Made by a program: the position numbers and the translations under genes. A stretch of DNA of 64,000 nt from Streptomyces sp. NBC_01754 (lineage in GTDB: Bacteria; Actinomycetota; Actinomycetes; Streptomycetales; Streptomycetaceae): positions 3,968,001-4,032,000 of the forward strand of contig NZ_CP109132.1 of assembly GCF_035918015.1 (NCBI RefSeq), given 5' to 3'. The stretch's first letter is position 1, and every line of letters starts with the position of its first letter. Positions 2,960-60,328 of this stretch are shown piece after piece. The notes beneath the pieces are model-generated. The model searched no databases. It was not told where the DNA came from and saw only the letters and a program-made list of their open reading frames with translations.

Positions 2960-4299
2960 GAACCACGCTAAATGCGCGCCGCGTTTTGTGTCACGGAGAA
3001 GCATGGCCATGACTCAGTTGTGCACAAGGGGATGGTTTTCTGCGTGGCCGTTCCCCGTGCTGACGAAGATGCGCCGAGGCAGCGGGCCACAGGGGAACGA
3101 CGTAGCACCCCGGTCGGCCGAAGTCGAGGCGCTGTACCCGATTCGAACCCACAACCAGCGGATCAAAAGTCCTGGCGAACTCGTGATCGTCCATTTTCCA
3201 TGATCCTGGTGAGGGTGATTCGTCCTGGTCAGAGCCCTACTAGGTCATGCTGTCGGGTTCGCGCCAGGGGGGCTCGTGCTGCACCGTCCGCTCACGCATC
3301 GCTCACGCATACACGCGAGACGATGTACCGGCCAGAACCGTGTCACCAGCAGCGAAAGGCGACGACCGGCCTTTCGGCCTGGGCGGCCGGGACGGCTCCT
3401 GTCGACCTGGCGACCCAGGCGGGCGTCAGGCAGCTGCCCGTCAGCTCGGGCACGTCGATGTAGATGGCGTGGACGGAGACGGCGGGAAGCTTCACGAGCA
3501 GAGTGACCGGGCTCTCCGGATGGACGAGCGGATCGCGGGCGTGATGCAAGTAGCTTCTCCGTCATCACCGCCAGCCAGACCAGTCGAGGGCCGGCGGTGA
3601 AGGTGGATTTGGGGCCTATCCCCCAAGAGCGCCAGGCCATTGATCGTCGGCCACCAACCCCGCTGACACGCACTGCCGTCGGCGACTGGCAAGGAAGCAT
3701 CGAGAATGAGCCATCCCATGCATGCTGCACGCAAGGAAGGCACTTCCGATACCGGCACAAATGACTTCTGCGCCGCCAGAGGCACCATGTCAACCAGTAG
3801 AGGAAACAAGATCAGGCCCGCCGACCCCCTTGGTGTCGCGACGCAGCTCAACAAGCCAGGCGTGAACTGCAGGGTGGCCTTGCCGCTTCGCCCGGCAGCT
3901 CACGCCACCGAGAGAATCCCAGCTGCTTCCGAACTGCAGAGCGAGACGGGGTGGTCTCGTTGCACATGAGGCGACCAGTAGCGATGCGCAGCACGGGGCT
4001 ACCACCGCAGCCCAAAAGGCACGCCATCAAAAAAATCTCCTCCAGATGGCAGGTTCACGACTGTCTGTGAAGGACATGTGACTGCAAGGCTGTCCTGCGA
4101 CAGGCCGTGAGTGCTGGGGGCGTAGGTCCTGGTGACCTCCTGAGGCAGCCAGGAAGCGCGCATTCGGACTGATCGAATTACTGGCTTTGGTGGGCCAGGA
4201 ACCTGCCCACACACCCTGTCATCAGATCCAGGCTGCGCGTCCCGGAACGACTCCCGGGGCGGATGCCATGGAGACTCTTCTCTACAGAGAGGTGCACTG
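2960..4299. other. gene-poor left arm of the element
   Basis: I find no convincing gene here. A minus-strand stretch at about 3343-3549 reads SPVTLLVKLPAVSVHAIYID and could be part of a decayed small protein, but the frame has no supported start. A tRNA-like fragment lies at about 3138-3176. The lack of genes next to the tRNA-like remnant suggests erosion or repeated insertion at this end. Confidence 0.5.
3138..3176 (-). other. tRNA-like fragment (anticodon arm to T-loop)
   Basis: On the minus strand a GGACTTTTGATCC anticodon-arm-like hairpin is followed at normal spacing by GTGGGTTCGAATC, a canonical T-loop. The 3' side of the T-stem does not pair and no acceptor stem can be formed, so it is not a functional tRNA. 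Depending on stem register the anticodon would be UUU or UUG. It may be an old attachment-site scar. Confidence 0.35.
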
Positions 4300-4830
4300 A
4301 TGAGCAATTTATTCAGTCGCCGAAGCCTGATCGGAACGGCCATCGCAGTTGCTGCAGGGGGCGTTGTAGGTGGTTCGGCCGCTTCAGCTGCACCGCACTC
4401 AGCGACGGCTAAAGCAAGCGCGGCAGATCTCCGCGTCGGTACGGTCACCGCGCATGACGGAGCAGACGTCGTTGTGGCCGTGACACAGAGCATGGGGACC
4501 CAGTCCACGGTCACCATGCCGGCCGTCGGCTTCCCCGAGGGCTGGCGGCTTCGTCCAGGCGATCGCGTCGGGCTACGCAAAGGGATGAAGGGGGGAGCGA
4601 GCGTTGTCGCTTGTCCGCTGGTGCGACCCGTACGCGGGGTACTCAAGAGTGACCCCTCGTCCAGTGCGGAGCTCCGGATCGCCGACGCCAGCGGACTACT
4701 CACCGAGCACAGCAGCGTCCGGCTCTCCGATGGGAACGTGACCTACATAGCGGACTTCATCGACAACGATCGCGGCGAGCGTTCGCTGTGCTTCGCCTTG
4801 AGACCCGAGCGCGCGCCCCTGGCCGCATGA
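4300..4830 (+). CDS. exported protein with twin-arginine-type signal
   Basis: This 176-residue protein opens with SRRSLIGTAIAVAAGG, a twin-arginine followed by a hydrophobic stretch and an A-S-A-A cleavage-like site near residue 31. The mature part is small, beta-rich and Gly/Val-rich, with a GDRVGLRKGMKGG stretch, and has only two cysteines. I do not recognise the family. A GAGAGG Shine-Dalgarno precedes ATG 4300. The stop overlaps the start of the MauE-like gene (ATGA), so it heads a translationally coupled operon with the redox genes that follow. It may be the substrate or structural partner of that system; this is inferred from position only. Confidence 0.75.
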   Translation: MSNLFSRRSLIGTAIAVAAGGVVGGSAASAAPHSATAKASAADLRVGTVTAHDGADVVVAVTQSMGTQSTVTMPAVGFPEGWRLRPGDRVGLRKGMKGGASVVACPLVRPVRGVLKSDPSSSAELRIADASGLLTEHSSVRLSDGNVTYIADFIDNDRGERSLCFALRPERAPLAA

Positions 4831-5408
4831 CGGGCGATTTCGCAGCCCTGGCACTGGCGGGTGTGCTCGCTGGTCTCCTTACCGGGCCAGGGCTCGAGAA
4901 GCTTCGGGCCCCTGAGTCCTTCAGTTCGACTCTGAAGGCTCTGGGACTGCCATCGGCCGTCCTGCGAACGGCGTCCATCACGTTGCCAGCGGCCGAGGTG
5001 TTGGCGGGGGCATGTGTGTTGCTCCTCCCGACGCAACTCTGGCCGATAGCACTGATTATTGCGCTTGCCTTCGGGTTCGCACTGGCTGGGGCATTGGGGC
5101 TTCGGGCGGAGAGCCCCATCTCATGCTCATGTTTTGGCGGCGGTAGCGAGGCCGTGCTGGGGAAACGACAGCTGTACGCATTTCCGCTCTGGGCTGGTGC
5201 TGCTGTTTCAGTAGAGGCTATAGGCCGAAGCTGGTCCTCGGGCGAAGGGGCTGCGTACCTTGCAGTAGTTCTCGCTGTCCTGTGTGGGCTCCGTGCCGTC
5301 AGCCTCGCCCGCCTGTGGCGAGATGCGAAAGCAGACAGATTGGCAGCCAGCGAATCCCTCCAGCCGCGCCATGCTCCCATTTTCGATGTCGCCAAGGAGG
5401 CCACGTGA
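4827..5408 (+). CDS. MauE/DoxX-family redox membrane protein
   Basis: A 193-residue integral membrane protein with about four or five hydrophobic helices. It has the MauE hallmark C-S-C-F-G-G at residues 100-105, after a helix ending in GLRAESPIS. MauE-family proteins support disulfide formation in the cysteine-rich light chain of methylamine dehydrogenase and occur widely in other redox clusters. The start ATG at 4827 overlaps the upstream stop, and its own stop overlaps the next gene's GTG. It probably passes electrons across the membrane between the MauD-like thioredoxin and the cytoplasmic side; the exact substrate is unknown. MauE itself is named for methylamine use, but no dehydrogenase heavy chain is present here. 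Confidence 0.75.
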   Translation: MTGDFAALALAGVLAGLLTGPGLEKLRAPESFSSTLKALGLPSAVLRTASITLPAAEVLAGACVLLLPTQLWPIALIIALAFGFALAGALGLRAESPISCSCFGGGSEAVLGKRQLYAFPLWAGAAVSVEAIGRSWSSGEGAAYLAVVLAVLCGLRAVSLARLWRDAKADRLAASESLQPRHAPIFDVAKEAT

Positions 5409-5959
5409 GTACAGGTCTTGCTGTGATCGCCATAATCCTCGCGCTTTGCCTAGGGGGGTGCACGCTGCTCCTCTTGGGTGCCCAGGTGGAGCTTTTCCGC
5501 AGCCTGCAACAGGTTCGTGAACAGGCTGGATTGCTTGACCGTGCGACACCCGTAGATTTGGGTAGCGCACGGGGGCTGCGCGCGAGTGAAGTCGGCCTTC
5601 CTGTCGGTTTGGACACAGAAACCAGCGCCCTCGTTCTTTTCCTGTCAGACAAATGCTTCGTTTGCCGATCGATTGCGGCCGGCCTGCAAGGAGCGTTGCT
5701 TCGTGGTGTCTGGCTAGTGTTGGACCCTGGCTCGGCTGGGCCGGATGCTCAACTCGCACCGGCACTGGGATTCAACGCGGAAGACGAAAAAGTTGTCGTC
5801 GACCCAGAGCGAAAAATCATGAAAGCAATCGGGACTCTGGGAACCCCCCCTAGTTCTCTCAGTCGAGCATGGGCGCCTCACACGCGCATCAGGAATCACC
5901 TCAACACGGCAGGTCTACGAACTCGCAGGCTCGGCTCTGCCTCAGCAGGCACGCCCTGA
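5405..5959 (+). CDS. MauD-like membrane-anchored thioredoxin-fold protein
   Basis: A 184-residue protein with one N-terminal membrane helix (residues 4-25, containing Cys15 and Cys19), a coiled linker, then a thioredoxin-like domain: LVLFLSDKCFVCRSI with the CxxC at residues 84-87 (C-F-V-C). MauD-type proteins use such a pair to form disulfides in an exported Cys-rich partner. The GTG at 5405 overlaps the MauE-like stop by GTGA, so the pair is translationally coupled. The domain is short after the active site, lacking some of the usual beta strands. The next gene encodes a tiny cysteine-rich protein, which is the obvious candidate substrate. Confidence 0.7.
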   Translation: MSTGLAVIAIILALCLGGCTLLLLGAQVELFRSLQQVREQAGLLDRATPVDLGSARGLRASEVGLPVGLDTETSALVLFLSDKCFVCRSIAAGLQGALLRGVWLVLDPGSAGPDAQLAPALGFNAEDEKVVVDPERKIMKAIGTLGTPPSSLSRAWAPHTRIRNHLNTAGLRTRRLGSASAGTP

Positions 5960-5992
5960 AAGCGATCACGTGAAGCAGGAAGGAATGATGGC

Positions 5993-6301
5993 ATGAGTGC
6001 ACTAATGGAGGCAGGTCGTCGAGTACTGGACGGCCTCGCCAGTAAGTAAGCGGAAAAAGAGGCCGCTGGCGCATCAGCCGCCTGTGCCGACGGGTGCTGC
6101 TCTCTCGTGTACTGCAATACCTGCGGGGTGTACGGATCTGCTTGCGAGCAGGTGAATTGCTCGTCGGGCTACCACCTCGAGGTCTGGCAGTGCAACGTGA
6201 GCGGTGGGTACTGGCTCTGCTATGAGTGCACCACCGGCAGCACTTGCTGGAATGGGACATTCAAGTGCTCTCAGGCTCGCCACTCGTCGGCCTGCAACTG
6301 A
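5993..6301 (+). pseudogene. tiny Cys-rich MauA-like protein, frame broken by TAA
   Basis: ATG 5993 has a GGAAGG Shine-Dalgarno. Eighteen codons later an in-frame TAA (6047-6049) interrupts the frame, which then runs open to 6301. The part after the stop has 13 cysteines in about 84 residues, including CADGCCSLVYCNTC, then a C-S-S-G-Y-H-L-E-V-W-Q-C segment and YWLCYECTTGSTCW. Spacing of the Cys and Trp residues recalls the methylamine dehydrogenase light chain (C-P-P-G-T-E-x-S-W-x-x-x-C and Y-x-x-C-C-G), but it is much smaller. The only later in-frame start is GTG 6107, which has no good Shine-Dalgarno and would lose the first three cysteines after the TAA. It is either a recent nonsense mutant, a sequencing error, or an unusual bicistron. 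Confidence 0.5.
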
Positions 6302-6322
6302 CATCAGCGATACCGATCGGCT

Positions 6323-6367
6323 GCGGCTCTCCCGCATTGGGAATTGAACCTGATGCGGGAGAGCCGC
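6323..6367. terminator. 15-bp perfect inverted repeat between Cys-rich and membrane-protein genes
   Basis: GCGGCTCTCCCGCAT and its exact complement are separated by 15 nt. No T-run follows, so it could be a partial terminator, a processing site or an mRNA-stabilising hairpin. It separates the coupled genes at 4300-6301 from the downstream pair. Confidence 0.5.
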
Positions 6368-6413
6368 CTAGGAAGCGGCCTGATGTTCATATGACGTTTC
6401 GAGGGGATAGTAA

Positions 6414-7160
6414 GTGAGCATCACGCCAACTGACATCACCGTACTGATTCTGGCCGCGACTGCAGGATTCGCTCAACTCTTCAGTCCTTGAGGACTGTCT
6501 TTCATAGGTACGCTCCGACCTCGACTTCGAAGCGCACCTACTTCTCTGGGCCAGGGAAGGAAGTGGAGTCAATCATATCGAGCATTGCCGGTAATTCTTC
6601 TATGCGCGGGATTCCTCACGTCAAGCACATTCATCTTCGCCGGCGTGAATTATGCAACTGGAGCTCTTGGGGTTGGAAACCTCCCCTTCGCAACACGTAA
6701 CGCGATATCAGTGGGGCTCTGTTGCGCATTTACGGCTGTCGATGTTTGGGTAGTCTTGCGAATGAAGGAATTCAGCATAGGGCTGCCTCGGCAAACGCCT
6801 CGCCTACTCATTTACAAAGGAAGCACCCACGCGGGCGCTCTCATCTGGGGCTTGGATACCGGGCTGGCATTTACGACCTTCCGTGTATCAGCGGCAACTT
6901 GGGCGGCCTTGGCCTTGGCCGCGACACAGTCAGCTCCCCTGCTAACCGGGGCGGCATACGGAACAGGATTCGCACTCCCGCTGGCATGCGCCATCCTGCT
7001 CCCCAAGTGGCGCCAAGAAGCCAATGGCGGGGATAGAATCGAACCACAGTGGCTCCTCAAATTTTTGCGACAGTACACCAGAAGCGTACAAGTCGCTGGC
7101 GTGGTCATTATGGCGGTAACGGCAATAGTTCTAGTAATTGCCGAAGCTAAAAGGGGGTGA
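6414..7160 (+). CDS. candidate selenoprotein: polytopic membrane protein with in-frame TGA
   Basis: GTG 6414 follows a GAGGGG Shine-Dalgarno and reads a membrane helix, TVLILAATAGFAQLFSP, straight into TGA at 6489-6491, then GLSFIGTL and a further 214 or so residues with about five more membrane segments, ending at a TGA at 7158-7160. Read through, it is 248 residues with Sec at position 26 in an S-P-U-G context. CcdA/DsbD-type electron transporters have Cys at this place; the CcdA at 60325 in this window has SPC at residues 20-22. A SECIS-like hairpin follows the TGA and selA/B/D plus tRNA-Sec lie just downstream. If the TGA is a real stop, the gene would be a pseudogene or would start inside at about 6585, losing the first helix. 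The last bases overlap or abut the lipoprotein gene. Confidence 0.6.
6482..6497 (+). promoter_or_regulatory. small hairpin presenting the in-frame TGA in its loop
   Basis: CAGTCC, TTGA, GGACTG forms a perfect 6-bp stem (7 if T-A closes) with the in-frame TGA inside the loop. It would have to melt for the ribosome to reach the TGA and is mutually compatible with the hairpin at 6505-6540. A role in decoding is only a suggestion. Confidence 0.45.
6505..6540 (+). promoter_or_regulatory. candidate bacterial SECIS element
   Basis: The hairpin begins 13 nt after the TGA. The arms are TAGGTACGCT-C-CGA and TCG-A-AGCGCACCTA, giving 13 base pairs over 36 nt with two A/C mismatches and an 8-nt loop that starts 27 nt after the TGA. 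This distance is in the range known for bacterial SECIS elements, which lie inside the coding region just 3' of the UGA. The loop has a G in the middle rather than in its first two positions, so it is not a textbook match. Confidence 0.5.
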
Positions 7161-7165
7161 AATGC

Positions 7166-7729
7166 ATGACGGAGCCTCAAGGGGCTAGAAGGGCCTCATC
7201 GATGCTGCTCATTCTTCTGCTCTCGATATCTGGATGCTCCAGCGAGGGGAGTAATAAGCCGAAACCCAAGGAGGTTGCATCTACGTCCGCATCTGACCCT
7301 TCGGAATCGAAAGGGCCTTGCCTGATCGCATCTTCGGACCCTACCGACGTGCCTGACGTTCTACGCGGCATGGGTTCCGATGTGAAGTGGTGCGGCGATA
7401 AGGATTTATGGGTGCGCACTCCTGGGGCAAGTGAATTGATCACCCTCGACAAAGGGGCTTACCGCGCAAAGTTTGCGTCTGTTACCTTGAACGAACAGGG
7501 TGAGATGAGTGCACGCAACGGACCACCGCAAGTCACTGCTGTCCGAGTAGATGGCTCTGGTACGGCTCGTGGCAGCACAGGCGGATACGCTACTGCCAGC
7601 GGAGAAGGAGGCCAAGAAATCCGCTGGTGGCCAACTACTATTACTTTCCCCTCCGCAGGGCACTGGGAAGTAAAGGAAGTTCTCGCCGCCACTACTGTTC
7701 GGTTCACTATCCATGTGTCAAAGCACTAA
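7166..7729 (+). CDS. lipoprotein of unknown function
   Basis: A 187-residue protein with a signal peptide SMLLILLLSISGC carrying a lipobox (L-S-I-S-G-C), then a Ser/Lys/Pro-rich linker and a soluble domain with two cysteines (in GPCLIAS and VKWCGDK). ATG 7166 is preceded by AAGGGGG at proper spacing; a GTG at 7157 overlapping the previous stop is a second possible start. It is probably co-transcribed with the candidate selenoprotein. Family not recognised. GC content and codon use are clearly lower than in the flanking core genes, a sign of foreign origin. It faces selB tail to tail. Confidence 0.7.
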   Translation: MTEPQGARRASSMLLILLLSISGCSSEGSNKPKPKEVASTSASDPSESKGPCLIASSDPTDVPDVLRGMGSDVKWCGDKDLWVRTPGASELITLDKGAYRAKFASVTLNEQGEMSARNGPPQVTAVRVDGSGTARGSTGGYATASGEGGQEIRWWPTTITFPSAGHWEVKEVLAATTVRFTIHVSKH

Positions 7730-7820
7730 GGTTCAGAGCTCCCGGAGGATGACAGATGGCAAGGAGGTGCAGTGAAGTAACCCAGTGGAGCTGTGGCCAC
7801 TCAGCCACGCGAACTGAGTT

Positions 7821-9623
7821 TCAGACGTTTCCCTCTGGCGCTTCCTTTACGCTCCGTCGGCTGTCGGTATGGCGCCGCATCAGCCCGATGCGGTCACAGT
7901 GCTCAAGCAGCGGCACGACAACACGCCGTGTGGTGCCCAGGGCGCGGGCAGCTTCGCCAACAGAAAAGGGCTGTTGCAGCCCGGTGAGGATGCGCAACGC
8001 CTGGGCAGGGGCATCCGGAAGAAGAACCACCTGATCCGTAAGACGCAGAAGCGAGCCCGCTCGATTTGCCGCAGCCAGTTCCTCGCTCCGCAATCCCAAC
8101 TTCAGTAGTCCTGGCGTTTCGGGAGCGGCGAAAGGGGTTTCAGCGAGCCGAGCGGTGATGCGCTTTACTGCAGCGGCAACCTGGGGAGACAGCATCGGAG
8201 TGCCTCTGGAGATGATTCGCCCGTCGCGGACGCTGAGTGGCGGTTTGATCAATGCAACGACCAGCGCTCTGTCTGGCAGGTCTAGTTTCTGACGTGCCGT
8301 CTCGATCGGCAGCCCATGTTCCGAGGGTCGGGTGGCGGTATGGATCTCGACTTCTTCCGCCAACCGTGAGCGCAACGACTCCCAGTACGGGGGGTGCACG
8401 AGCCAGTCGCCGACTACGGCAGATCCGCGTATCGGAACTCCCATGGCTTCGAGTTGCCCTCGCCTGATCAGTAGCCGTTGTCGCAGCTCGACGGCCTCTC
8501 GGGGTGTGCCATCGTAGGTGCGCAGAGTGGCGCCACGATGTGCCGCAGCACCTCGTCGGCGTAGTTCTGGTGGCTGTACGTCGAGCAACGTCACACCGCT
8601 AAGCCCGCGGCGTCCGGGGTCCCTCAGCACAGCACGGTCGCCGATACGCAGCGGCAGCGGCGCAGACAGGGTGAGCCGGGCAGTGTCCTCTCCCAGTGGT
8701 CGTACGTGAACGGGCACAGCCGCGGAACCGATATGCAGGATGGCGTTCCGCTTCCGCTGGGCAGTCAAGGGGTCCCTGCTGTGCACTCGCACGTCACAGA
8801 CCGAACAGTCCAGGAACGCTCCGGGGGTGAGTAGAACATCGCCTCGTCCGGTCTCATCCCGGTTCACGCCGCGAAGGTTGAGAGCAACCCTAGCGGTGCC
8901 ACAAGCGGCGGGGGTGGATTGGCCGAGAGTCTGGATGCTCCGAACGCGCACGGGACGCCCCGTACCGAGGGCGAAGAGCGAGTCTCCCGTGCGGATTCGG
9001 CCCGCGTTCAGTGTGCCGGTGACCACGAGCCCGCTGCCGTTGATGGTGAATGCGCGGTCCAGCCAGAGGCGCACGGGCGCCTCAGGATCGTTGCCGGGCA
9101 GCTTGGACACCAGCCGTGCGAGCGCATCGCGCAGTTCGGGCAGCCCCTTCCCAGTGACTCCGCTCACCGTGACCGCCTCGACGTCGCCCAGCGACGTGGC
9201 ACGGATCTGCGCGAGGGCTTCCTCTCGGGCAGGGGACGGGTCGGCCAGGTCGCTGCGTGTCACGGCTAGCAGTCCATGTCGTACCTCCAGCGCGTCCAGC
9301 ACCGCGAGGTGTTCTGCGGACTGCGGCATCCAGCCCTCGTCCGCCGCTACGACGAACAAGGCTGCAGGTACGGGCCCCGCGCCGGCGACCATGGTGGTGA
9401 TGAAGCGCTCGTGGCCCGGCACATCGACGAACGCCAGCCGCTCATCTCGCCGCTCCGGGTTCGCCGGATCCCGGGAGGGGAGATCCATCCACGCGAAGCC
9501 CAGGTCGATCGTCATCCCCCGTAGCTGTTCCTCCGCCAGACGGTCGGGATGCGTGCCGGTCAGGGCCTGCACGAGCGTGCTCTTGCCGTGGTCTACATGG
9601 CCCGCTGTCGCGATCACGCGCAT
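7821..9623 (-). CDS. selB: selenocysteine-specific translation elongation factor SelB
   Basis: The 600-residue protein starts with the GTPase G1 motif AGHVDHGKSTL (residues 7-17), then G2 around RGMTIDLGF, G3 DVPGHERF and G4-like VTRSD, followed by EF-Tu-like beta-barrel domains and a C-terminal set of winged helices that in SelB bind the SECIS hairpin. It delivers Sec-tRNA-Sec to in-frame UGA codons. ATG at 9623 lies 1 nt after the selA stop, so selA and selB form one transcript in the order tRNA-Sec, selA, selB. Length is normal for actinobacterial SelB. It converges on the lipoprotein gene. The family call is certain from the motifs. Confidence 0.95.
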   Translation of the reverse strand: MRVIATAGHVDHGKSTLVQALTGTHPDRLAEEQLRGMTIDLGFAWMDLPSRDPANPERRDERLAFVDVPGHERFITTMVAGAGPVPAALFVVAADEGWMPQSAEHLAVLDALEVRHGLLAVTRSDLADPSPAREEALAQIRATSLGDVEAVTVSGVTGKGLPELRDALARLVSKLPGNDPEAPVRLWLDRAFTINGSGLVVTGTLNAGRIRTGDSLFALGTGRPVRVRSIQTLGQSTPAACGTARVALNLRGVNRDETGRGDVLLTPGAFLDCSVCDVRVHSRDPLTAQRKRNAILHIGSAAVPVHVRPLGEDTARLTLSAPLPLRIGDRAVLRDPGRRGLSGVTLLDVQPPELRRRGAAAHRGATLRTYDGTPREAVELRQRLLIRRGQLEAMGVPIRGSAVVGDWLVHPPYWESLRSRLAEEVEIHTATRPSEHGLPIETARQKLDLPDRALVVALIKPPLSVRDGRIISRGTPMLSPQVAAAVKRITARLAETPFAAPETPGLLKLGLRSEELAAANRAGSLLRLTDQVVLLPDAPAQALRILTGLQQPFSVGEAARALGTTRRVVVPLLEHCDRIGLMRRHTDSRRSVKEAPEGNV

Positions 9624-9624
9624 G

Positions 9625-10947
9625 TCAGATCTCCGCCGCGCGCATTACGGCTGTGAGGACTTCGTCGTCGTGCTGCTCTGGCACACAGCGCAGGTCCAGC
9701 AACAATCTGCCGCGTTCGACCCGGCCCAGAACCGCGGGGGTTCCTGTCCGAAGCGGCTCGGCGAGGGCAGGAGGTAGAGCGATCGCGTACGACGGCAGTA
9801 CGGTGCCCGGTGCACCGCCTCCGCCGACGACTGCCTCCGAGGGCGTAACTACTGCGTCCAGTCCGTGCCGGGATACGGCACGGACAAAGCGCTGCGAACG
9901 TGCTCGCAGCACTTCCGGAGAGAGATGCAATGCCTGATGTACAGGTGACTCAGGGCCACGGAGAGTGGCTTCCAGCGCGGCGAGAGTGAGTTTATCGACG
10001 CGGAAGGCGCGGGCCATCGGGTGCCGCCGGAGGCGAGCGACCGTATCCGCCGCTCCGAGTAGCAGTCCGGCCTGCGGGCCGCCGAGGAGCTTGTCGCCAC
10101 TGGCGGTGACCAGCGTCGCACCGGCCCGCAGTGCGGAGGTGGCGTCAGGTTCGCCGGGCAAGAGCGGGTCGGGCTTCAGTAGTCCTGAGCCAATGTCGAC
10201 GACGACAGGCAGCCCCAGTCCGGCCACGTCACGGACGCCTACCTCAGATGTGAACCCGCGCACCACGAAGTTGGACGGGTGGATCTTCAGCACGAACGCG
10301 GTGTCGGGCCCGATCGCTTCGGCATAGTCGCTCAGCCGGGTCCTGTTGGTCGTGCCCACCTCACGGAGCCGAGCTCCTGCTGCGGCCAACAGTTCTGGGA
10401 TTCGGAATCCGTCACCTATCTCTACGAATTCCCCCCTGCTCAGTAGGATGTCCCGTCCCGCTGCCAAGGCGGCCGCGGCGAGTGCCAGGGAAGCGGCGCC
10501 GTTGTTCACAACGTGTGCTGCCTCCGCGTCCGCCACCGCCTCGCACAGGGCACTGATTGCTCCTTGTCCCCGCGGAGCACGGCGACCGGTGCGCAGGTCC
10601 AACTCGACATCGGTATGGCCAGCTGCTGCGTTCACCGCGTCTAGCGCTGCCGCAGACAACGGCGCCCGCCCCAAATTAGTGTGGACCACGACGCCGGTCG
10701 CGTTGTGCACGGGACGTAGCTCGGCGGCGTGGTCCGGCAATGCGGCGAGTGCCGCGTCCACAGCCGTCGCGGGCGTGATCTCACCCTTCCTCACAGCCTG
10801 CTGTGCAGAGGAGACAGCGGCCTTCGTAATGCGTCGCCCTAAGCGCGCCGATGCCTGGCGTAGTCGCGGATCGTCCAACAGCTTGGAGGTACTGGGCACA
10901 TGGCGCCTGGCATCCGCAGGCGTAGAACATTGCTGATCGTCATGCAC
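9625..10947 (-). CDS. selA: L-seryl-tRNA(Sec) selenium transferase
   Basis: This 440-residue PLP enzyme converts Ser-tRNA-Sec to Sec-tRNA-Sec using selenophosphate. Visible landmarks are NATGVVVHTNLGRAPL near the N-terminus, ELDLRTGRRAPRG, VVNNGAASLALA, IHPSNFVVRGFT, and the PLP-lysine motif ASGDKLLGGPQAG. I chose GTG 10947 because GGGGAG lies 10 nt upstream; a second GTG at 10899 is possible. The tRNA-Sec gene lies 24 bp upstream in the same orientation, so both may share a promoter. selB follows immediately. Bacteria with SelA do not need the archaeal PSTK/SepSecS route, so this set plus selD is complete. Confidence 0.95.
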   Translation of the reverse strand: MHDDQQCSTPADARRHVPSTSKLLDDPRLRQASARLGRRITKAAVSSAQQAVRKGEITPATAVDAALAALPDHAAELRPVHNATGVVVHTNLGRAPLSAAALDAVNAAAGHTDVELDLRTGRRAPRGQGAISALCEAVADAEAAHVVNNGAASLALAAAALAAGRDILLSRGEFVEIGDGFRIPELLAAAGARLREVGTTNRTRLSDYAEAIGPDTAFVLKIHPSNFVVRGFTSEVGVRDVAGLGLPVVVDIGSGLLKPDPLLPGEPDATSALRAGATLVTASGDKLLGGPQAGLLLGAADTVARLRRHPMARAFRVDKLTLAALEATLRGPESPVHQALHLSPEVLRARSQRFVRAVSRHGLDAVVTPSEAVVGGGGAPGTVLPSYAIALPPALAEPLRTGTPAVLGRVERGRLLLDLRCVPEQHDDEVLTAVMRAAEI

Positions 10948-10970
10948 CGTACGAGCACTCCCCGGAACCT

Positions 10971-11066
10971 TGGCGGAGGCGGACGGGAATCGAACCCGCC
11001 TGGCCCGGCTTCCGGACCACACCGATTTTGAAGATCGGGAGGGGCACCAGCCGCCCTAACGCCTCC
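10971..11066 (-). tRNA. selC: tRNA-Sec (anticodon TCA)
   Basis: The 96-nt gene begins GGAGGCG and ends CGCCTCC-G-CCA with CCA encoded. It has an anticodon loop CTTCAAA, a long variable arm (GTGGTCCGGAAGCCGGGCC) and a T-loop GTTCGATTC. The extended acceptor/T-arm and UCA anticodon identify it as selenocysteine tRNA. It lies between divergent selA and selD. Confidence 0.95.
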
Positions 11067-11122
11067 ATGTCGTGATTCTTGTTCTTCGAACACGCGAGTG
11101 ACAAGAGTGAAAAGGTAACGGC

Positions 11123-12172
11123 ATGACGTCCGTTGGCACATCGCACTCGAATCAGCCAACCGCCCCGAGCCCGGTGAGGAGGCTCACCTCGTACGCGCAT
11201 GGTGGGGGCTGCGCCTGCAAGATTCCGCCGGGCGAACTGGAGGAGATGGTCGCCGGTCTGCTGCCGGCTGGACCGACCCTTCGTGGAGGAGAAGGGGAAC
11301 TGCTCGTCGGGCTGGACGATGGTGACGACGCGGCCGTGGTGCGTACTGGTCCAGGTACGGCAGTGGTGGCAACGGCGGACTTCTTCCCACCGGTCGTGGA
11401 CGACGCCTACGACTGGGGCCGAATAGCTGCAGCCAACGCGCTGTCCGATGTCTACGCGATGGGCGGCCGCCCCATCGTGGCTGTCAACCTCCTGGGATGG
11501 CCCCGTGGGGTTCTGCCCATAGCCCTCGCACGGGAGGTATTGCGAGGAGCCCAGGACGTGTCCCGACTCGCCGGGTGCCATATAGCCGGAGGCCACAGCG
11601 TCGACGATCCAGAGCCGAAGTACGGAATGGCGGTCACCGGCCTGGTGGACCCGGAGCACCTCCTGCGGAATGACGCCGGACGCCCCGGAATCCCCCTGAC
11701 CCTGACGAAACCGCTGGGAATCGGTGTCCTCAACAACAGGCACAAGCTCACCGGTGAGAACTTCCCGCACGCCATCGCGAATATGACCACACTCAACGAC
11801 CAGGCATCGGCCGCTGCCCTGGCCAACGGAGCAGTGTGTGCCACCGACGTCACCGGATTCGGCCTCCTTGGCCATCTGCACAAACTGGCGCGGGCCAGTG
11901 GCGTCACCGCTGTCGTAGATCCGGCAGCAGTACCCATGCTCGATGGGGCGCGAAAATCTTTGCAGGAGGGATACGTCAGTGGCGGCACTCGACGCAACCT
12001 CGACTGGGTGCGCCCGCACCTCAGATCGGACAAAACTGCGGAGGAAGAACTCCTCCTGCTGGCGGACGCCCAGACTTCCGGTGGGCTACTGGTGGCCGGC
12101 GAGCTCCCCGGCCATCCCGTCATCGGCGAACTCATCCCCTCTGTACCCGGTACCACGATCATCCTTCGTTGA
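11123..12172 (+). CDS. selD: selenide, water dikinase (selenophosphate synthetase)
   Basis: This 349-residue enzyme makes selenophosphate from selenide and ATP. It carries the N-terminal catalytic loop LTSYAHGGGCACKIPP, with Cys30 and Lys33 matching E. coli Cys17 and Lys20; Cys, not Sec, occupies the catalytic place. DDAAVV and GHSVDDPEPKYGMAVTG are the ATP-binding glycine and acidic motifs of the PurM/SelD superfamily, and GIGVLNN, CATDVTGFGLLGHL follow. The gene diverges from tRNA-Sec/selA with only 56 bp between, so a bidirectional control region is likely. AAGG precedes the ATG. Length is typical. Confidence 0.95.
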   Translation: MTSVGTSHSNQPTAPSPVRRLTSYAHGGGCACKIPPGELEEMVAGLLPAGPTLRGGEGELLVGLDDGDDAAVVRTGPGTAVVATADFFPPVVDDAYDWGRIAAANALSDVYAMGGRPIVAVNLLGWPRGVLPIALAREVLRGAQDVSRLAGCHIAGGHSVDDPEPKYGMAVTGLVDPEHLLRNDAGRPGIPLTLTKPLGIGVLNNRHKLTGENFPHAIANMTTLNDQASAAALANGAVCATDVTGFGLLGHLHKLARASGVTAVVDPAAVPMLDGARKSLQEGYVSGGTRRNLDWVRPHLRSDKTAEEELLLLADAQTSGGLLVAGELPGHPVIGELIPSVPGTTIILR

Positions 12173-59542: not shown

Positions 59543-60328
59543 ATGCCCACGCCCACCACCCGCCCGAAGTCCCGCAAGCCGCTCGTCTTCGGCACCGTCG
59601 TCGTCCTCGCCGCCGGACTGCTCGGCTTCGCCTCCTACCGGGCCACCGCCCCCGACTCGTCCCCCTCCGGTACCTCGGCGGTCGGCACGACCGCCGAGGA
59701 GGCCCCCGGGGCCCACCCCGAACTCGTGGCACTCGCCCGCCGCGACGCCGCCGACAAGCTGGCCCAGGGCCGCACCGACGCCCCCGTGGTCCTCATCGAG
59801 TACGCCGACTTCAAGTGCGGTTACTGCGGAAAGTTCGCCCGCGACACCGAACCCGAACTGGTCGAGAAGTACGTACGGGACGGCATCCTGCGCATCGAGT
59901 GGCGCAACTTCCCGATCTTCGGCAAGGAGTCCGAGGCCGCCGCCCGCGCCGCCTGGGCGGCCGGACAGCAGGGCCGCTTCTGGGAGTTCCACCGGGCCGC
60001 GTACGCCGAGGGCGCCAAGGAGAAGGGGTACGGCGAGGACCGGCTGCGGGCCCTCGCCCAAGAGGCCGGGGTCGAGGACCTCGACCGTTTCGCGCGCGAC
60101 ACCGAGAGCACCGCGGCGGCCGACGCGGTCGCCCGCGACCAGGAGGAGGCCTACGGGATCGGCGCCACCTCCACCCCGTCCTTCCTCATCAACGGCCGCC
60201 CCGTCGCGGGAGCCCAGCCGATGTCCGTCTTCACCCAGGCAGTCGAGGCCGCGGCGGCCGACGCCGCACCCGTGGGCAGCGCCGGGGAGGACGCCGGGGA
60301 GGAGAAGGCCGGGGGGAAGGCGGAATGA
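59543..60328 (+). CDS. DsbA-like thioredoxin-fold oxidoreductase
   Basis: A 261-residue protein with an N-terminal membrane anchor (LVFGTVVVLAAGLLGFASY), a Ser/Thr linker, and a DsbA/thioredoxin_4 domain: IEYADFKCGYCGKFARDTEP carries the C-G-Y-C active site, and IGATSTPSFLINGRPV is the cis-Pro loop. The ATGA overlap with the downstream CcdA gene shows coupling. The pair forms an extracytoplasmic thiol redox route. Confidence 0.85.
   Translation: MPTPTTRPKSRKPLVFGTVVVLAAGLLGFASYRATAPDSSPSGTSAVGTTAEEAPGAHPELVALARRDAADKLAQGRTDAPVVLIEYADFKCGYCGKFARDTEPELVEKYVRDGILRIEWRNFPIFGKESEAAARAAWAAGQQGRFWEFHRAAYAEGAKEKGYGEDRLRALAQEAGVEDLDRFARDTESTAAADAVARDQEEAYGIGATSTPSFLINGRPVAGAQPMSVFTQAVEAAAADAAPVGSAGEDAGEEKAGGKAE

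Follow-up and report, generated by a model that had tools for sequence, protein, structure and literature searches.

The 64,000-nucleotide stretch of the Streptomyces sp. NBC_01754 genome analysed here (contig NZ_CP109132.1, positions 3,968,001 to 4,032,000), referred to as the window, carries at positions 6414 to 7160 a gene whose frame contains an early TGA. A first-pass annotation of the window had proposed that this gene encodes a new CcdA-like membrane protein with selenocysteine (Sec, U) at the TGA. The gene product was designated SecM, and a Cys-rich protein encoded upstream of it was designated CysR; both labels were coined in this analysis. The gene has the following features.

6414..7160, plus strand: secM, predicted membrane selenoprotein of 248 residues with a GTG start, Sec26 and a stop TGA at 7158-7160 (from the translation, homologues and a structure model)
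6489..6491, plus strand: in-frame TGA, read as Sec26 (SPUG); the TGA is kept in 24 of 24 loci
6401..6406, plus strand: GAGGGG, a Shine-Dalgarno-like sequence ahead of the GTG at 6414 (from the sequence)

In-frame stops lie immediately 5' of the GTG at 6414. When the TGA was translated as U, the product read VSITPTDITVLILAATAGFAQLFSP-U-GLSFIGTL... in a single open frame up to the stop at 7158-7160, which confirmed the Shine-Dalgarno-supported GTG start, the in-frame TGA and the open frame onward that had been claimed for this gene. secM of the window is intact, and the rest of its 248-codon frame is open. Since secM terminates at a second TGA, any recoding must depend on position. The genome itself contains one SecM locus, with one TGA within. 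In the predicted structure (pLDDT 87.5, pTM 0.87), SecM has six helices, and Sec26 adjoins a break in the modelled first transmembrane helix.

Relatives were collected through a protein search (41 proteins), a motif ca. 120 codons downstream of the TGA (14 loci) and profile searches of genomes. The resulting set comprised 24 loci of 22 genomes (this window, L007-L020, L022-L024, L031, L033-L036 and L039), the carriers being mostly actinobacteria with one Chloroflexi metagenome-assembled genome (MAG; G945). Two genomes contributed two loci each (L011/L017 and L031/L039). L017, which has a frame break 3' of the site, was counted for the TGA and left out of alignment A3 and of the genome handles, the latter because it shares its assembly with L011. 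Next to L033 lies a second, broken copy, L040. A search of genome contigs with the protein P0001 alone found no relative, and alignment A2 then recovered them. The genus scan with P0001 was positive in 1 of 295 genomes, and A2 was positive in 3 of 391 genomes of the order and 2 of 394 of the class, the own genome being counted in each. A3 gave matches in 10 of 200 genomes of the family of G938, including the remote matches L037 (G1064) and L038 (G1004), which were kept outside the 24. Both have a TGA in frame close to the aligned position (SVUTHN and APUGVN) and perhaps represent a further branch of the family.

A TGA was found at the site in all 24 loci whose DNA covers the position, in the context [QH]-x-[FL]-S-x-U-G-x-S-[FM], and none of the 24 had a TAA, a TAG or a sense codon there. 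Since 14 of these loci had been found by the downstream motif, they were not picked for the TGA. The loci fall into a main clade of 18 (UGxSF) and a second clade of six (UGxSM). The residue before Sec varies, with S-L-U or S-F-U in some relatives and SPU here, and Sec26 is the sole invariant Cys/Sec column in 17 aligned rows. Pairwise changes were then counted at codon positions 1/2/3 over nine codons on either side of the TGA. The main clade gave 158/114/587 before the TGA and 303/139/688 after it, and the second clade 34/10/77 and 24/21/60, respectively. This excess of third-position changes on both sides indicates that one frame is translated through the TGA.

The Sec machinery was placed by the first-pass annotation downstream of the TGA-containing gene, and all four of its components were indeed found there, within 7821-12172.

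7821..9623, minus strand: selB (PF09107, PF00009)
9625..11022, minus strand: selA (PF03841, E 3.9e-95)
10971..11066, minus strand: tRNA-Sec with anticodon UCA (ARAGORN; RF01852, 75.7 bits)
11123..12172, plus strand: selD (PF00586, PF02769)

SelA was found in all 17 carriers tested (of 22), as compared to 57 of 158 genomes over the cut-off in a class sample, the own genome included. Among the matches listed, 20 of the 22 carriers and both remote genomes had a tRNA-Sec of at least 60 bits. The 60-bit line was chosen by us, since control genomes also give low-scoring matches, five of them over the cut-off, and the cut-off by itself does not separate cleanly. G1060 scored weakly at 49.4 bits, as did the Chloroflexi MAG at 43.5 bits. 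In 10 of the 22 genomes, a sel gene is no farther than about 8 kb from secM (the window genome, those of L013-L016, L018 and L019, and G296, G437 and G1014), and selB is directly 5' of the MauE gene in L013-L016. L013 has two tRNA-Sec genes (2825-2918 and 4065-4159), and its genome, G939, has a second SelA match. Again among the matches listed, formate dehydrogenase alpha subunits above the cut-off were interrupted by an in-frame TGA in 13 of the 22 carriers; no such subunit was found in the other nine, the own genome included, so that Sec is kept in these genomes without that client. In the own genome, the single strong match to formate dehydrogenase alpha (C1:479389-482445) contains no in-frame stop, and secM may thus be an important Sec client here.

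Taken together, the TGA in 24 of 24 loci, the coding signal on both of its sides and the Sec machinery of the carriers strongly support the proposal of a new selenoprotein with Sec at this TGA, and on this comparative evidence 6414-7160 is very probably a selenoprotein gene.

Protein databases give a different picture of the site. Three protein searches were made of a 5.8-billion-protein set; two of them scored the best 8000 candidates, and shared five-residue words were needed. Not counting the own translation and the window fragment, they yielded 129 homologues, a number of which are weak matches with E values as high as 1. None of the 129 spans the Sec site, the DNA of most of them not having been seen. 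Wherever the DNA was seen, the upstream helix is present in frame and the annotated protein starts past the TGA, as for P0007 and P0010, which lie on the contigs of L010 and L008, respectively. In these cases, the Sec site is missing from the database protein because gene callers begin after the TGA. Homologues that begin after position 6491 had been named in advance as a finding that would speak against Sec; to the letter, this is what the database contains, but the DNA, where seen, has the upstream helix in frame. The expectation of Cys-containing relatives at the site was not borne out: no Cys form occurs in the 24 loci or among the 129 proteins, none of which covers the site, and since no Cys relative was found, it cannot be shown that Sec replaces Cys. 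Because of the five-residue words and the best-8000 scoring, a distant relative with Cys, for instance CcdA, may have been missed. Three weakly similar proteins of 441-446 residues (P0067, P0068 and P0069), which start with MVGTVRAAR or VRAAR, may be another branch that is cut at a TGA and fused to a sizeable C-terminal portion.

If the TGA were a true stop, it would end a 25-codon leader and a separate downstream protein would be made by translational coupling. The absence of the site from all 129 database homologues weighs against Sec in this respect, as do three observations on possible starts: all six loci of the second clade have an ATG four codons past the TGA, where GAGG, drawn from the TGA itself, could act as a ribosome site; 71 listed proteins begin with MAGV at this ATG; and a possible start lies two codons past the TGA in 4 of the 18 main-clade loci (L008, L010, L016 and L022). 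However, no restart codon 3' of the TGA is common to the 18 loci of the main clade, where the first possible restart is at codon 2 in those four, at codons 7-32 in 12 and beyond codon 39 in two (L012 and L031), and the invariant G27, S29 and G32 all precede it in 14 of the 18. Amino-acid constraint acts on the codons of both sides in one frame, the codon is TGA and never TAA or TAG in all 24 loci, and the carriers have Sec genes; a true stop is, therefore, very improbable. The TGA could also be a nonsense mutation of a Cys codon in this genome, or a sequencing error, and the adjacent MauD-like and CysR genes look damaged in the window and lie in a stretch of low GC content, which speaks for this explanation. 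This explanation is less probable still and is already refuted for the family by the same TGA in 24 loci of 22 genomes, and neither the lack of a Cys form among the 129 proteins nor the otherwise open 248-codon frame agrees with it.

A selenocysteine insertion sequence (SECIS) element was sought 3' of the TGA, and one weak candidate was obtained in the window.

6505..6540, plus strand: predicted hairpin 3' of the TGA, weak SECIS candidate (minimum free energy structure; stability not clearly above that of synonymous variants, z -0.83)

Over the 24 loci, the folding energy after the TGA was not unusual as compared to synonymous variants (mean z -0.36), and no fold common to all 24 was found there. 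The six sequences of the second clade can form a 6-bp hairpin at bases 15-31, paired in 36 of 36 cells; its three two-sided changes all come from L024, and its covariation score was reached by 17 of 500 shuffles.

The genes that adjoin secM are listed below; the first-pass annotation had described neither its MauE-like, MauD-like and Cys-rich neighbours nor the damage to two of them.

4300..4830, plus strand: protein with a twin-arginine-translocation-like signal, as judged by eye; L007-L010 and L017 have a similar gene close to the operon
4788..5408, plus strand: MauE-like membrane protein with CSCFG (CxC) (PF07291, E 5.2e-18)
5405..5959, plus strand: MauD-like membrane-anchored thioredoxin-like protein with SDKCFVC (from relatives; no Pfam match)
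5993..6301, plus strand: CysR, Cys-rich protein with an in-frame TAA at 6047-6049; intact copies exist elsewhere
7157..7729, plus strand: lipoprotein-like gene overlapping the secM stop; a similar gene lies 3' of secM in L007

In L007-L020 and L022, tblastn found MauE in 14, MauD in 15 and CysR in 14 of the 15 loci, and CysR of L020 was seen by eye. These three genes adjoin secM even at loci in which tblastn did not detect a sel gene (e.g. L007-L011). The MauD-like protein has a CxxC and an N-terminal helix-like stretch and gave no relevant Pfam or NCBIfam match; in the window, its homology shifts frame near 5832-5848, and its C-terminus is damaged. The twin-arginine pair of CysR is invariant, only one of its Trp residues is, and its mature domain was modelled as beta-rich, with pLDDT values of 73-91 per ten residues. 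By eye, CysR of the window has no hydrophobic signal stretch. Loss of part of the signal by deletion was considered and rejected, as the protein matches that of L007 over the same length. The damage to MauD and CysR may mean that the local system is decaying or that the assembly is wrong here. GC content per 500 bases is 54-60% at 5500-8000 and 54-67% at about 4000-8000, as compared to 70% for the window, which suggests that the stretch around secM is acquired DNA. Two loci have two CysR genes each, L009 (5440-5793 and 7622-7990) and L022 (954-1331 and 2608-3003). In P0041, a weak match (E 5e-3), a SecM-like part is fused to a MauE domain. The lipoprotein-like gene resembles, by eye, the C-terminal part of P0004.

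SecM was compared with CcdA and DsbD, which it resembles in having S-P-(U/C) near the break of helix 1 and a thioredoxin-like neighbour. CcdA of the window at 60325 does have the SPC motif attributed to it. A forced global profile alignment set SPU on SPC over 204 columns with a weak probability of 35, and the local profile comparison with SecM gave 5.6 only. In a Foldseek search with the SecM model, CcdA (5vkv) ranked fourth (probability 0.60, E 0.33, TMq 0.33) with the highest probability among the best 50 rows, and CcdA was absent from the best 50 VIA rows. PF02683 matched neither SecM of the window (E up to 1) nor the 17 members (E up to 0.1), and no second conserved Cys like that of the CcdA pair in TM1 and TM4 was found in the 17 SecM rows. 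SecM differs from CcdA and DsbD in its Sec, present in 24 of 24 loci. The term CcdA-like is, thus, backed only in part, by the weak motif alignment and the top Foldseek probability and not by a domain match or a second Cys, and kinship of SecM with CcdA is no more than plausible.

The neighbours point to another known system. MauE and MauD serve the maturation of methylamine dehydrogenase, according to the decRiPPter study (PMC7794033), and the secM operon likewise combines a MauE domain, a CxxC partner and a small disulfide-rich twin-arginine product; it differs in adding a selenoprotein. CysR matched no amine dehydrogenase light-chain model, the Z values of its comparison with aromatic amine dehydrogenase light chains (2agy, 2h47 and 2agw) were too low for a claim of kinship, and a Foldseek search of the PDB with the CysR model found nothing. 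An hhalign comparison of CysR with the methylamine dehydrogenase light chain did no better than shuffles, 91 of 100 of which scored equal or higher, and the CPxG...WxxC resemblance of CysR is, therefore, not evidence. Against PDB sequences, the CysR profile gave mostly signal-region matches (best E 0.36), and the SecM profile gave nothing useful.

Among catalogued selenoproteins, a 2026 review tabulates 119 prokaryotic families and subfamilies, including the rhodanese/DsbD fusion-like TsoB (PMC13188914). SecM shares with them a single Sec in a redox context (PMC13188914), and no entry of Table 1, some rows of which give no motif, fits SecM by name, domain and motif (PMC13188914). No NCBIfam selenoprotein model matched any of the 17 SecM members at E 0.1. 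We found no report of the SecM family in the literature covered, subscription literature being mostly outside that coverage. On our reading, SecM belongs to an unnamed selenoprotein family.

Gene order and motifs place SecM in an export-side thiol-redox set together with the MauE-like protein (CxC), the MauD-like protein (CxxC) and the twin-arginine CysR. We give the whole reading, that SecM is a selenoprotein within such a Mau-like set, a probability of about 0.8. SelB and tRNA-Sec would decode UGA 6489 as Sec26, a step that is strongly supported. The lone Sec26 would be linked to a MauD or MauE cysteine in a selenenyl-sulfide and would pass electrons across the membrane, and the disulfides of CysR would thereby be formed or reshuffled correctly, by analogy with MauE/MauD and the disulfide-rich methylamine dehydrogenase light chain and with the electron relay of CcdA/DsbD. 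A role of SecM in CysR maturation is probable, while for the electron relay via Sec26 the chances appear even. SecM could instead be a selenoprotein outside CysR maturation, namely a transporter or antioxidant that travels with sel genes. This is rather unlikely, as MauE, MauD and CysR stand beside SecM even at loci where no sel gene was found, and one weak family member is fused to MauE. A different role for CysR itself, that of a precursor resembling ribosomally synthesised and post-translationally modified peptides (RiPPs), with MauE, MauD and SecM as tailoring enzymes of a peptide cluster, would fit the decRiPPter study, which reports for Streptomyces three candidate families whose precursors contain eight or more Cys and which include mauE homologues, in one case together with mauD (PMC7794033). 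These families place MauE/MauD beside a Cys-rich precursor as the secM loci do, a likeness by description, and the word selenocysteine is absent from the main text of that paper (PMC7794033). The invariant twin-arginine pair and the beta-rich modelled domain make CysR look more like a folded exported protein, and we regard the peptide precursor as the less likely of these two alternatives.

SecM bears on how selenoproteins are found and why Sec is kept. Bacterial selenoprotein searches rely largely on Cys-containing relatives; in the deep-Sep paper, all known selenoproteins are said now to seem to have Cys homologues, and families without them may be filtered out (PMC12013277). If SecM is what it appears to be, it falls in the blind spot of such searches, and it is a Sec client for genomes without a Sec-containing formate dehydrogenase. 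We tentatively suggest, as a bolder proposal that is somewhat doubtful, that SecM is an obligate-selenium membrane redox family without a Cys counterpart, that through a single membrane-embedded Sec it drives the maturation of a secreted disulfide protein akin to quinone-cofactor amine dehydrogenase light chains, and that it is a main reason why some actinomycetes keep Sec. With SecM as a true selenoprotein family, the need for Sec over Cys would become testable.
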